Shown here piece after piece: positions 13,129-60,145 of a stretch of 64,000 nt of DNA. The notes below the pieces were generated by a model. That model saw nothing but the letters and a program-made list of their open reading frames with translations. It was not told the DNA's origin and did no database searches. Origin of the DNA: Aradus depressus. Taxonomy: Eukaryota > Arthropoda > Insecta > Hemiptera > Aradidae. The stretch's first letter is position 1. Each line of letters begins with the position of its first letter. Both the position numbers and the translations under genes were made by a program. Location: assembly GCA_963662175.1 (NCBI GenBank), contig OY759225.1, positions 16,051,601 to 16,115,600 on the forward strand. The letters run 5' to 3'.

Positions 13129-14582
13129 GCCCCCCCTGAGAGGTTTTTTGGATCCGCCACTGGCCAGACAGTGATAAAAGAAAATAAATAAACTGGTGAG
13201 CCAGAGATTGATAAACTAAAATAAATACAACTGGTAAGCCCGAGAGTGATAAAAGAAAATAAATAAACTGGTAAGCCAGAGAGTGATAAAAGAAAATAAA
13301 TAAACTGGTAAGCCAGAGATTGATAAACTAAAATAAATACAACTGGTAAGCCAGAGAGTGATAAAAGAAAATAAATAAACTGGTAAGCCAAATAGTGATA
13401 AAAGAAAATAAATAAACTGGTAAGCCAGAGAGTGATAAAAGAAAATAAATAAACTGGTAAGCCAGAGATTGATAAACTAAAATAAATACAACTGGTAAGC
13501 CAGAGAGTGATAAAAGAAAATAAATAAACTGGTAAGCCAGAGAGTGATAAAAGAAAATAAATAAACTAGTAAGCCAGAGAGTGATAAAAGAAAATAAATA
13601 AACTGGTAAGCCAGAGATTGATAAACTAAAATAAATACAACTGGTAAGCCAGAGAGTGATAAAAGAAAATAAATAAACTGGTAAGCCAAATAGTGATAAA
13701 AGAAAATAAATAAACTGGTAAGCCAAATAGTGATAAAAGAAAATAAATAAACTGGTAAGCCAAATAGTGATAAAAGAAAATAAATAAACTGGTAAGCCAA
13801 ATAGTGATAAAAGAAAATAAATAAACTGGTAAGCCAAATAGTGATAAAAGAAATTAAATAAACTGGTAAGCCAGAGAGTGATAAAAGAAAATAAATAAAC
13901 TGGTAAGCCAGAGATTGATAAACTAAAATAAATACAACTGGTAAGCCAGAGAGTGATAAAAGAAAATAAATAAACTGGTAAGCCAGAGAGTGATAAAAGA
14001 AAATAAATAAACTAGTAAGCCAGAGAGTGATAAAAGAAAATAAATAAACTGGTAAGCCAAATAGTGATAAAAGAAAATAAATAAACTGGTAAGCCAAATA
14101 GTGATAAAAGAAAATAAATAAACTGGTAAGCCAAATAGTGATAAAAGAAAATAAATAAACTGGTAAGCCAAATAGTGATAAAAGAAAATAAATAAACTGG
14201 TAAGCCAAATAGTGATAAAAGAAAATAAATAAACTGGTAAGCCAAATAGTGATAAAAGAAAATAAATAAACTGGTAAGCCAGAGATTGATAAACTAAAAT
14301 AAATACAACTGGTAAGCCAGAGAGTGATAAAAGAAAATAAATAAACTGGTAAGCCAAATAGTGATAAAAGAAAATAAATAAACTGGTAAGCCAGAGAGTG
14401 ATAAAAGAAAATAAATAAACTGGTAAGCCAGAGATTGATAAACTAAAATAAATACAACTGGTAAGCCAGAGAGTGATAAAAGAAAATAAATAAACTGGTA
14501 AGCCAGAGAGTGATAAAAGAAAATAAATAAACTAGTAAGCCAGAGAGTGATAAAAGAAAATAAATAAACTGGTAAGCCAGAA
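12745..14582. repeat. 37/38-bp minisatellite, about 37 units, with higher-order pattern
   Basis: The basic unit is GAGTGATAAAAGAAAATAAA plus TAAACTGGTAAGCCAGA (37 bp). There are three variants: G (agagagtg), A (aaatagtg) and T (agattgataaac, 38 bp). T units are almost always followed by G. The block T-G-G'-G, with G' marked by ACTAGT, recurs three times, and runs of five and six A units are interspersed. This suggests stepwise amplification of multi-unit blocks. The antisense strand is stop-free for up to 243 codons purely because of the repeat. A hAT sits at 12803-13162. Confidence 0.95.
12803..13162. mobile_element. Non-autonomous hAT (360 bp) inside the minisatellite
   Basis: Ends CAATGGCGGATCCA and the complement of CAGTGGCGGATCCA are flanked by perfect 8-bp duplications GCCAGACA (12795-12802 and 13163-13170), the hAT hallmark. 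It contains C and A homopolymer runs and no transposase. The TSD is minisatellite sequence, so it inserted after the array existed. Confidence 0.88.
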
Positions 14583-26380: not shown

Positions 26381-26678
26381 TAACACTGTCCAACAAAAAA
26401 AATTAAATTAATTTTTCAGAAGGTATCATTCTTGATTCTTATGGGAAATTGTCTCCTGGATTCAAATCTGAAATTAGTTTTTCTGTGTCAGACATAGTTT
26501 TCAAGTTATACACAATTTCAGTTTTTTTTCAAAATTGTTACACTTCTTATTTCCACGCTATGTATTTATAAAGGCAAAACATGCAACTATCAATATTTTA
26601 GTCACTTATAAAATTAATAAAACAAACTATTTTTTGAAATATTGTCTATTCCACTAAAGATATTTATAAAAATACAAC

Positions 26679-26709
26679 TACCGGTTTCGGCCTTACACCA
26701 TCGTCAGGT
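26679..26709 (-). ncRNA. Hammerhead-type motif (element D, left arm)
   Basis: Exact mirror of the right-arm motif: CUGACGA at 26707-26701, then U, a three-pair stem II, GAA, palindromic stem III ACCGGU, and A26679. Confidence 0.5.
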
Positions 26710-26755
26710 CTAGTTATGAACTAAGTAAATGTACTGCCACTTTAGTTCATAACTA

Positions 26756-26790
26756 GACCTGACGATGGTGTAAGGCCGAAACCGGTAGTT
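26756..26790 (+). ncRNA. Hammerhead-type motif (element D, right arm)
   Basis: CUGACGA at 26759-26765, extra U at 26766, stem II GGU/GCC (26767-26769 with 26775-26777) with a five-base loop. GAA is at 26778-26780, stem III ACCGGU at 26781-26786 and cleavage-site A at 26787. Stem I has C58-G88, A57-U89 and G56-U90 (last two digits of positions). Position 7 of the core is C, which hammerheads tolerate. Confidence 0.5.
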
Positions 26791-27193
26791 GTATTTTTAT
26801 AAATATCTTTAGTGGAATAGACAATATTTCAAAAAATAGTTTGTTTTATTTATTTGTTACAAACTCCACAATATGTCCGCGTTCCTCAACTTTGAAGTCA
26901 CTTATAAAATTATATAGAAACATTTTAGACAGTATAAAACAAAAACATGAAGGCGCCCATAAATTATCATCATATATTGTATAAAAAATGCCAGGTTAAA
27001 TTTAAGATTTCACTCTCTCTCTCTCTCTATGTTAGAATCTGACTTCTAGTTTACGTCTATGGTTGAAGAGATTTCAGTAAAAGAGAAATATAGAAAGTTG
27101 TACATATTTTATATACTACAGTTGTCAGAATAATATACTGTAGTTAAAACATAAATATGTATAAATATAGTATGAATATTTACTGACATGATA

Positions 27194-45731: not shown

Positions 45732-46148
45732 TTTTTTATTGTTAATCTATTTTCTTTTGTAAAACAATTATTTAAATGTTGTGTTTTATATGTTTTTTGA
45801 ATTAGGTTTACTTTTCAATAATATTTTGATTTTTTGGTTCTGATTGCTGTCCATTACTTATCAAAATATTTGTTTGCATCTTTAAACCCGGTCCAACTCG
45901 TTTCGGATCATCTTTTATTTTTATTGACCCATTAACATATTCCGTTTCTATATTATATAATATGTACATATACAAATGTAAATTACATAAATAACTTTTT
46001 TATTTATTAATTTTAATATCTTTATGGTCACAGGGAATAAGTTGTCAGTCGTAAAATGGCCAAAATGAGTTAAGTGTACTGTGATGATCTCCCAAGCCAT
46101 CTGAGCACTGTGAAGAAGTTGGGAGCTCACGACTCTAATACTTTCGGA
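45732..46148. other. No gene recognised
   Basis: AT-rich; unassigned. Confidence 0.3.
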
Positions 46149-46547
46149 ATTATAAAGATATGAGTTTCTTGATATCTCGTAAAATTGTGTATGTTCTCGG
46201 TCAAATCAACATAATCTACTTCTTTGAGGAATCATTCACGAGATAACTGCATTTAACCATTATTATAAGAGAATTATAAAGATATGAGTTTCTTGGTATC
46301 TCGTAAAATTGTGTATGTTCTCGGTTAAATCAACTGCATCTACTTCTTTGAGGAATCATTCACGAGATAACTGCATTTAACCATTATTATAAGAGAATTA
46401 TAAAGATATGAGTTTCTTGGTATCTCGTAAAATTGTGTATGTTCTCGGTTAAATCAACTGCATCTACTTCTTTGAGGAATCATTCACGAGATAACTGCAT
46501 TTAACCATTATTATAAGAGAATTATAAAGATATGAGTTTCTTGGTAT
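46149..46547 (+). repeat. 124-bp tandem repeat, three units plus a partial
   Basis: Units start ATTATAAAGATATGAGTTTC at 46149, 46273, 46397 and 46521 (partial). Near-identical units imply recent amplification. Confidence 0.95.
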
Positions 46548-47097
46548 TTTTCCATAGTCTATCAGATCTTCAGTTCCAACTGAAGGATAAACCATCTTTT
46601 CCGAACGACCTGCCCGCTGTACTGACAGAAAGTCGGTTTCTTTGTTAAACCCGCTGTGTCCAAGTAACCTCATAAGTCTACAATCAGAATTTTTCCATAG
46701 TCTATCAGGACAAACCGTCTTTTCCGAACGACCTGCCCGCTGTACTAACAGAAAGTCGGTTCCTTTGTTGAACCCGCTGTGTCCAAGTAACCTCATAAGT
46801 CTACAATCAGAATTTTTCCATAGTCTATCAGATCTTCAGTTCCAACTGAAGGACAAACCGTCTTTTCCGAACGACCTGCCCGCTGTACTGACAGAAAGTC
46901 GGTTCCTATGTTAAACCCGCTGTGTCCAGCAACCTTGTAAGTCTACAATCAGAATTTTTCCATAGTCTATCAGATCTTCAGTTCCAACTGAAGGACAAAC
47001 CGTCTTTTCCGAACGACCTGCCCGCTGTACTAACAGAAAGCCGGTTTCTTCGTTGAATCCCCTGTGTCCAAGTAACCTGTTAAGGTTGTGGAAAAAT
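46548..47097 (+). repeat. 143-bp tandem repeat, four units
   Basis: Units start TTTTCCATAGTCTATCAG at 46548, 46691, 46814 and 46956. The second unit lacks 20 bp that include the CTTCAGTTCCAACTGAAG hairpin. It directly abuts the 124-bp array. The open frames in it are by-products of the repetition. Confidence 0.95.
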
Positions 47098-52690: not shown

Positions 52691-52772
52691 TATTCCTATG
52701 AAGTATTAGAAAGTGAGAAGAAGTCTCTGAGAAAGACTCCTATAAATTTCAGCCAAATCTGTCATAGGAAAA

Positions 52773-53503
52773 AAGGGCTGGAAGTTAATGTCGACAAGAG
52801 CGACTACCTTATAGTCAGTAAGAATATCCATCTGGAGCAGGAATTAAATGTGGGGACCTTCTCCTCCCCAAGAATTGAGAACTTCAGATATCTCGGGTCC
52901 ACGGTAACTAGCATCAACTCGATGCTGGAGGAGGTGGACAGAAGACTTCTGCAGGCCCAAAGAGCGTATTTCTCTGTCATCAAGCTACTACGGTTCAGAG
53001 CCTTGTCAAGGAACCTGAAGTATAGGATCTACAGCTCCATGGTAAAGCCCGTTCTGATCTATGGGTGTGAAACCTGGACCCTGACCTCACATTTGGAGAA
53101 ACGTTTCCAGACGTTTGAAAATAAAGTGCTGAGGAAAATAGCAGGTCCGGTCAAGGATAGAGAAACCCAAGAGTGGAGGATCAGAACCAACAGGGAGCTG
53201 AGAGACATCTTCTGGTAACACCCGACCGTAGTTGCAGATATGAAATCACGGCGCTTAAGATGGGCTGGAACCGTGGTGAGAAGCGGACAGCAGACAGCCA
53301 TAGGACGCATCATGGACGCTCAGGTCCAAGGAGCCAGATCACGAGGAAGACCACGGCTGAGGTGGGCTGACCTGGTGAAGAAGGATGCTGTGGAACACCA
53401 CGTGGTCAACTGGCGACCGGTGGCGCACGACAGATCGCGGTGGAGAAGGCTAGTGTGGGCGGCTAAGGATCTTCAGGGTTCGTCGCCAACGGATTGAGTG
53501 TGT
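52773..53503 (+). pseudogene. RTE-like LINE 3' end with 12-bp TSD
   Basis: One frame reads GLEVNVDKSDYLIV, FRYLGSTVTSINSM, KPVLIYGCETWTLTSHLEK and FENKVLRKIAGPV, an in-frame stop at 53216-53218, then SRRLRWAGTVVRSG and RGRPRLRWADLV. This is the thumb and C-terminal tail of RTE-type reverse transcriptases. ORF2 ends at 53497 with almost no 3' UTR (a GTGTGT stub), as usual for RTE. Exact TSD GTCATAGGAAAA at 52761-52772 and 53504-53515. 5' truncated and dead because of the stop. Confidence 0.85.
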
Positions 53504-59164: not shown

Positions 59165-59695
59165 AAGATATACAGTACCTTAGAACCAAACTATCGTATG
59201 TCCATTTTTGATGAAAAGTAGGTAAGAATTGATTTTTACTAATTTTAGGGTGCTCTTTCTGATGGTGGGAATCATATGTCTCTAAACCAATCTGTCTTTA
59301 TTTTAAAATTAAGAAAATGTAATGTCCCCTTAGATCAAAACTATCTTACAGACAAGAATTGCTCTTACGATCGTTGAAATCAAAATTAAATTAAATTTGG
59401 ATATATCCTATGTCTAGTTAAGATTGTTTGGCTCTCAGAAAAAATGGGTTCACATAGCCTATGTCACATTGTAACCACATTACAACCTCCTCTCATGCAA
59501 TTGTATGTCCATGTGACATGTAGTGTTGAACTTTGATTAATGACCCAACTATCGTATGTCCAGACTTCATCACTAAGTCCAATTGAAAGTAAAACATATG
59601 TCGTGGAGTTTGAATCAAATGGCAGATTCGGTGGCTCGGTATAACTGATAATAAGCTAAGGACCATCAAAAGCTCCACTCGAGTCTGGAACACTT
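59165..59695. other. Unassigned; ACTATCGTATGTCCA recurs
   Basis: AACTATCGTATGTCCA occurs at about 59187 and 59547, with a partial CAATTGTATGTCCATG at 59499. Spacing is irregular; no gene is visible. Confidence 0.4.
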
Positions 59696-59699
59696 CAAT

Positions 59700-60145
59700 A
59701 AGAGAAAAAAGGAAAGAAGAAGTAATTTTAACTGGGTTACGTAGAGGGCAGAGCAGGCTGACCCATGGATATCTGATGGCTCGGGAACCCCCTCCTCTGT
59801 GTCAGTGCTGCGGGGTGGGACTGTCTGTCAGACACATTCTGACTGAATGCATGGCATATAGTCCCCAGTGTGAGAATTTCAACCTTGTGGTGGATATTTC
59901 CGAAATTCTATCTAATAATAGCTCCCAAATTACTCAACTATTTCATTTCTTGCACTTCACAAACCTCTTATCTAAATTATAAAACAAAATTGTCTTCATC
60001 ACGTAGCCTTTCTGTTCGGTATACAGCAATCTCCTTTATTATTATTAATCTGCGCCTATCCAAATTAGCCCGCTAGGATCCCCAGAGACCTGCATCCATC
60101 AGGCATCCATGACCCTCAAAGAAATGCCTTAAAGAATAAAAAAAA
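59700..60145 (+). pseudogene. I-like LINE C-terminal end, third lineage
   Basis: A frame from about 59710 reads TGLRRGQSRLTHGYLM, REPPPLCQCCGVGLSVRHIL and TECMAY: the same 'RLTHGYLM..C..C..RHILTEC' arrangement as the copies at 4747 and 32650 but clearly another family. It ends CATGACCCTCAAAGAAATGC followed by an A run near 60138. 5' truncated. Confidence 0.78.

Follow-up and report, generated by a model that had tools for sequence, protein, structure and literature searches.

Within the 64,000-nt stretch of Aradus depressus DNA that was analysed, here called the window, lies a small insertion composed of the following parts.

Positions 26600 to 26616, no strand: target-site duplication (TSD), left copy, 17 bp, AGTCACTTATAAAATTA, an exact repeat of 26896-26912.
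Positions 26617 to 26724, minus strand: putative cDNA arm from the inner RT start, the leader of a Penelope-like element (PLE) in minus orientation, outer edge at 26617.
Positions 26679 to 26707, minus strand: second hammerhead-like core, in the left arm, from a motif scan.
Positions 26725 to 26741, no strand: putative junction of two cDNAs (spacer, 17 nt), the length and sequence of which vary among copies.
Positions 26742 to 26849, plus strand: putative cDNA arm from the outer RT start, the PLE leader in plus orientation.
Positions 26759 to 26787, plus strand: minimal hammerhead-like core, CTGACGA-T-stem II-GAA-ACCGGT-A, from motif scans and without a match in Rfam.
Positions 26850 to 26895, plus strand: tail (46 nt) with the leader end, the ATG and the first codons of the PLE ORF.
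Positions 26896 to 26912, no strand: TSD, right copy, AGTCACTTATAAAATTA, a repeat of the left copy.

The original prediction described a 279-bp palindrome with 108-bp arms, and this is correct to the letter, the left arm (26617-26724) being the exact reverse complement of 26742-26849. The 17-bp spacer, the 46-bp one-sided tail and the 17-bp flanks were each exact on recheck. In the motif scan CTGACGA-N12-GAA-ACCGGT-A was found once per strand, at 26759-26787 (+) and 26707-26679 (-), and A26787, named earlier as the A of the cleavage site, is rightly placed in the plus-strand core. Elsewhere the window holds a tandem array of about 38 copies of a 37-bp unit (13163-14581), tandem repeats of 123-142 bp with 2-3 copies each and 92-98% matches (46147-47078), and ORFs which by eye resemble remnants of other reverse-transcriptase elements (52691-53218 and 59614-59982).

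A PLE with matching sequence, from which the palindrome had been thought to derive, is present in the genome, where coding PLEs with RT and GIY-YIG carry both the arm and the tail. A GIY-YIG search of the genome listed 150 matches, all those scored of 1852 candidates. On contig C7 the copies L064-L066 form a tandem array with a period of 2852 bp, and the window's 154-nt arm and tail are contiguous at the ORF start of the array units. The right arm and tail match L064:1312-1466, where the pLTR of a coding PLE meets its ORF start, with 90.3% identity over 155 bp. The tail codons, ATG TCC GCG TTT CTC AAC TTA GAA, read MSAFLNLE, continuing as VVNSASRAVNAVKFSKLS, and in L064-L066 the tail stretch runs on in frame as MSAFLNLEVVNSASRAVNAVKFSKLS. 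Membership among the PLEs is indicated by RT and GIY-YIG in a single ORF (L061, with the Pfam domains RVT_1, E 6.5e-15, and GIY-YIG, E 2.7e-6), by pLTRs read from the 2852-bp tandem on C7, and by the short tail at one end, which is 46 bp in the window, the other copies sharing both boundaries; the anole paper gives PLE tails as 30-40 bp (PMC11167929). No relatives by sequence were found in the PDB at E<=0.01.

The window-type arm was also found at the 3' end of the PLE copies L052, L055, L056, L060 and L061, which terminate at the same boundary as the left arm does on its outer side. Neither the GIY-YIG matches nor the leader queries yielded a coding copy whose leader is exactly that of the window. 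L123 has a window-type leader (95.4% over 87 nt) with the frame running on, and in L162, a decayed copy, and L166 such a leader comes after the ORF and 3'UTR sequence about 80% like L065. All 40 listed leader copies of the PLE family are 99-100% alike. A second PLE family (L058, L059) has an 859-aa frame, a 2819-bp spacing and a different leader; at L058 (C7:1898800-1905400) two long copies of it stand head to head, with 2511-bp arms of 99.96% identity. A related PLE family in L133-L135 has a frame about 49% like the parent and a similar leader end, and by eye its ORF start, MSVFIDNACRANNAVKF, differs from that of the parent.

Judged by its sequence, the window element is a leader-only insertion of a PLE, a real insertion product and not a new class of element. 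Its description as a protein-less piece of a PLE agrees with the match of arm and tail to the leader and ORF start of coding PLEs. The further idea of a minimal non-autonomous PLE derivative is right as to PLE origin, but a separate non-autonomous family is not needed, because both types of palindrome leader also sit on PLE copies.

The genome (698 Mb, 74 contigs) was searched with the window element, which gave at least 40 scored places, the best 40 of 1338 first-look candidates. The further copies with TSDs that had been foreseen are there: 39 other places were retrieved for alignment and have the outer boundaries of the window copy, and for this reason the window palindrome is not a product of chance. 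Sample 1 consists of 37 independent insertions, the window and 36 others, after L013-L015 were dropped as the same insertion as L012. On C13 four places, 45834473, 45803591, 45769577 and 23742501, hold one and the same palindromic insertion in identical flanks, three of them 31-34 kb apart, the explanation being either a segmental duplication or an assembly effect.

In sample 1 the copies have the outer left edge AAATAAATAAAACAA in common, as well as CCGCGTTCCTCAACTTAGA as outer right edge; TSDs follow these edges and are less clear in L019, L020 and L042. Lengths were counted in 23 of the 25 mismatch-free rows of sample 1, leaving out L012, L042 and the 12 rows with mismatches; the exact TSDs were 12 or 13 bp in 16 of the 23 and 14 bp in three, and the 17 bp of the window is at the long end of the family range. 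When all exact TSDs were counted, 25 of 36 were 12 or 13 bp, and A+T was 83% over the 36; such AT-rich targets are again what is expected of a PLE. The centre of the palindrome varies in length and sequence from copy to copy. Arm ends could be placed relative to CATAAC in 35 of the 37 copies (not in L020 and L032); 17 right arms end 8-10 nt upstream of it, with a longest reach of 23 nt, and 26 left arms end 4-10 nt upstream, with a longest reach of 28 nt. Templating of the centre inserts by the arm was considered and set aside: in the 16 inserts of at least 9 nt the mean longest match to the arm was 6.1 nt, as compared to 4.3 nt when shuffled, and seven of the 16 had p<0.05; the window's own spacer has no match to the arm beyond shuffles (p 0.999). 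Long inverted arms and a TSD could also be left by a DNA transposon of the foldback or MITE type, with long terminal inverted repeats, but we see practically no chance of this, as the tail is one-sided and the centre copy-specific, so that the copies do not have symmetric terminal inverted repeats passed on as one unit, and arm and tail together are the ORF start of a retrotransposon.

When placed on L065, the insertion ends point to two start sites of reverse transcription. The inner start lies at about 1422-1435, around 1427 (GTTTTATTTAT), and the outer start at 1463-1480, which corresponds to ORF codons 7-13, the ATG being at 1444. The outer start is about 40-50 nt downstream of the inner one, and the difference between them is the tail. 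Both ends were read in 76 inverted pairs, 73 with the usual inner and an outer site and three with a displaced inner and an outer site. The same site was never found at both ends (0 of 76), a count in which inner with inner was testable only in the 10 GIY-selected copies; sample 1, sample 2 and the window-subfamily sample were drawn with tail-containing queries, by which outer with outer could be caught and inner with inner could not.

In sample 1 the right ends fell at 1466-1479 in all 37 copies, and 36 of them have their left end at the usual inner site, L012 being displaced (1412). By alignment the left ends were at 1419-1436 in 35 of 37 and the window was read as 1445, overrunning into the AT-rich TSD; its exact arm edge, 26617, puts the inverted end at the usual inner site. 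Sample 2 was collected with a leader and tail query, and 35 of 40 places were fetched, the other five being array units or already in the set. The tail side was at 1467-1480 in 35 of 35, and the opposite end, where readable, was formed by an inverted copy with its edge at the inner site (16 of 16); the other 19 were not readable or lacked an inverted partner. The GIY-selected sample of 25 loci, 20 of them chosen by frame length and profile range and not randomly, had both ends readable in ten (L052, L061, L104, L105, L111, L113, L115, L116, L120 and L121), and in all ten an inner end is paired with an outer one, both orientations being represented. L103 and L114 have the appearance of single cDNAs, and the remaining 13 loci were left out of the count. 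L098, which is complex and where no TSD was found, has an inner and an outer end but was kept out of the tally of inverted pairs. The window-subfamily search gave an inverted arm close by in 13 of 40 places (10 of 37 independent), and among 20 fetched of the other 27 an inverted partner was present in 13, the other seven being not readable or lacking one. The inner start of these 13 was the usual one in 11 and displaced in two, to 1408 in L167, which has a TSD of 12 bp, and to near 1409 in L155, which has none. The putative second cDNA is sometimes short, with about 16-20 nt in L052 and L111.

Three loci have a different arrangement. At L162 an inverted copy with an outer start lies about 20 nt past the outer end of the sense copy, tail to tail, and is either a neighbouring second insertion or an exception to the pairing. 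L157 carries two direct leader pieces, 1239-1356 and 1239-1477, of which the upstream one ends at 1356, beside the scissile bond. L161 is a leader insertion without an inverted PLE copy, and by eye its 5' joint has flanking target DNA in inverted copy, much as copying of a folded-back target end would leave it.

The two arms of one copy are alike. Mean divergence between arms was 3.0% within a copy as compared to 9.0% between copies, and 5000 reshufflings of the arms never gave a divergence below 6.6%. Variants present in both arms of 11-17 copies occurred in a single arm in at most three copies each; the exception among the listed variants is a G>A found in three right arms and never in both. 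By subfamily the arms were A/A in 25 copies and B/B in 12, with none mixed among the 37, where 16.2 mixed copies would be expected if arms were independent; the copies are related via their sources, and the probability of this mixing result is not to be taken at face value. Because variants and subfamilies match within copies, the sequences say that the palindrome is made anew at each insertion, presumably from one source.

A palindrome can also be made by self-priming, in which a single cDNA or an antisense RNA pairs with itself, primes its own copying and integrates as the resulting hairpin. The original prediction proposed such a snap-back unit, and self-priming on an antisense template is proposed for rotifer PLE palindromes in the available part of that report (PMC3846280). 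The perfect arms of the window copy agree with it, and so do some of the 15 usable junctions among 18 in sample 2 (L069, L081 and L086 were left out as complex), since the two 5' ends were at most 20 nt apart in seven, as compared to 2.3 expected by shuffling (P=0.002). In the other eight they were more than 20 nt apart, and seven of the 15 had arms cut off more than 100 nt apart (134-551 nt), which is difficult to reconcile with a self-copied hairpin. Such a hairpin should furthermore reach its own start and the flank, and no pair of the 76 repeats its start site. On these grounds snap-back integration is disfavoured; we regard it as very unlikely for the family, and an unlikely origin of the window palindrome.

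Coincident ends in such excess agree with two cDNAs reaching the same RNA 5' end, and the unequal ends fit early stops. The 30 arm 5' ends of sample 2 include nine at 936-956, the ORF end, and seven at 1275-1316, in the leader (L065 coordinates). In the anole, RNA coverage is raised at the ORF C-terminus and at the pLTR-ORF junction (PMC11167929), and the end clusters seem to fit these peaks, though in another species.

It is highly likely that the PLE enzyme extends both cut target strands, and that the cDNAs primed at the inner and the outer site are joined head to head. The PLE protein (RT and GIY-YIG endonuclease) would cut the target strands about 12 bp apart, and each cut 3' end would prime reverse transcription within the PLE RNA, one at the inner and the other at the outer site. 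Both cDNAs, which may share one RNA molecule as template, would extend to the RNA 5' end and would then be joined end to end, often with small insertions. A leader-only palindrome would be the outcome if reverse transcription began at the sites of the 5' leader and not at those of a downstream pLTR. With the leader copy of the start sites as template, both cDNAs would stop at the RNA 5' end just upstream of TTAGTTCATAAC, a position deduced from the cDNA ends, and this shared stop would leave a palindrome that is close to perfect, with a tail on one side only. In vitro, the purified PLE protein of the anole cut and extended each of the two target strands, with internal starts at two sites; the authors explain the tail as the stretch between the two start sites and leave the later steps open (PMC11167929).

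The data fit dual priming and end joining better than antisense self-priming. There are also points against dual priming, namely the displaced inner starts of L012, L155 and L167, the lack of a TSD in L155, and the unequal ends in eight of the 15 junctions. L103 and L114, which look like single cDNAs, and L161, without an inverted PLE copy, speak against its being universal. Contrary to the model, the in-vitro study of the anole protein saw no difference in start site between the strands (PMC11167929).

Both cut strands may be extended on a single RNA, one from each start site, although we hold this only tentatively. The use of two different sites would then follow from pairing of the first cDNA with its stretch of the RNA, which the second primer could not use any more. 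It is also conceivable, if a little less so, that dual priming takes place on two RNAs held by a protein dimer, a variant of the same model that overlaps with it. The unequal 5' ends in eight of 15 junctions would be natural for two RNAs, and the anole protein has been modelled as a dimer (PMC11167929), but two RNAs do not explain the two different start sites. The lack of mixed-subfamily copies (0 of 37, about 16 expected) also speaks against two RNAs, though the same pattern would be left by RNAs from one locus or by a cis-preference. With a single template RNA the unmixed arms and the two different sites would both be accounted for, and as against two RNAs of one source we consider the chances about equal.

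The hammerhead core predicted for each arm is present in its letters, which are intact in 66 of the 74 arms of sample 1, but not as a member of an Rfam family. There was no Rfam hammerhead at the gathering threshold over the window and none at E<=10 over the element or one arm; matches to MIR6136 and MIR4387 were below their gathering scores and reflect the long hairpin. The core has an extra T/U before the 3-bp stem II, which we take to be at the same place as the extra A of a viroid hammerhead. The second PLE family has the same core layout with another stem II/III, CTGATGA-T-GAGG..CCTC-GAA-AGCCGGCT-A, and the extra T is kept. A viroid hammerhead with an extra A has been described, in the part of the source available (PMC3705267), and PLEs are known to contain minimal hammerheads, for which the available parts of two others state cleavage in dimeric form (PMC7761336, PMC6155905). 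Free folding of single arms gave no hammerhead and was no better than shuffles, and the two-arm cofold (-28.3 kcal/mol as compared to -19.4 for two monomers) formed none.

The proposal that RNA processing is coupled to the palindromic form found no support, as the cores are on opposite strands and the arms cross the scissile bond. A transcript of the palindrome would contain one core and its complement, and its hairpin, at -176 kcal/mol in predicted folding, would hide the core. The scissile bond corresponds to L065 1357/1358. The arms of sample 1, which was selected on full arms and gives no rate, run through it, which implies that their templates were uncut there; this agrees with in-vitro work in which cleavage proved dispensable. 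On the tentative reading with two primers and one template, the hammerhead would not be cut before reverse transcription. Ribozyme cleavage was considered as a cause of the arm ends and rejected, only L121 (1360) being near the site among the inverted-arm 5' ends not selected on full arms, with the direct piece of L157 ending at 1356. Retrozyme repeats stand in head-to-tail order. A retrozyme-like non-autonomous element, spreading as ribozyme-cut circular RNA, would account for a hammerhead-like core in each arm and for the L157 piece ending beside the scissile bond, but it is most improbable, since the cores are inverted and in no direct tandem, an Rfam hammerhead match is absent, the arms pass through the scissile bond, and both leader types also sit on PLE copies.

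The integration of PLEs is poorly understood, and these insertions preserve, for each event, the two start sites, the two points of truncation and the joint. With events so fully recorded, self-priming, two-RNA and one-RNA models become testable by counting in a PLE-rich genome. If the reading with one template is true, the tail, the inverted pLTR and the palindromes would all be products of one rule. The leader-only palindromes may offer an explanation for the scattered minimal hammerhead motifs of animal genomes and, if transcribed, could act as dsRNA hairpins against the PLE. We found no paper with the rule of one inner and one outer site or with leader-only palindromes, and an earlier account is possible in Craig 2021, Cervera 2014, Schostak 2008 or Lunse 2017.

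Pen2a of Adineta vaga, in the available part of its report (PMC3846280), and PAc of Anolis (PMC11167929) are like the present family in having an ORF with RT and GIY-YIG, tandem pLTRs, a TSD, a head-to-head inverted pLTR with a short tail on one, and an ORF start within pLTR and tail. PAc also shares the hammerhead motif (PMC11167929). For rotifer PLEs, the same part of the Pen2a report describes inverted pLTRs, one of which bears a tail of 31 bp, and, at head-to-head junctions, palindromes (PMC3846280). In contrast to Pen2a and PAc, leader-only insertions are a large class here, and the ends pair one inner with one outer site, never the same site twice in 76, whereas the two papers, as available, call the tail optional. 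Dual priming is favoured here, and self-priming is what the available text proposes for the rotifer element (PMC3846280). Metazoan retrozymes, as described in the accessible parts of two reports, are likewise small non-coding repeats with hammerhead motifs, and with TSDs when these are present, but they have classical type I ribozymes around the repeat, as compared to the inverted arms and the core without Rfam match seen here (PMC7229834, PMC7761336). The minimal hammerheads of Lunse et al. 2017, as cited in the available part of PMC7761336, are of minimal type I with little helix III, a layout that the present core may share, and are said there to cleave as dimers. The insertions described here would be one way in which such motifs scatter as inverted pairs.
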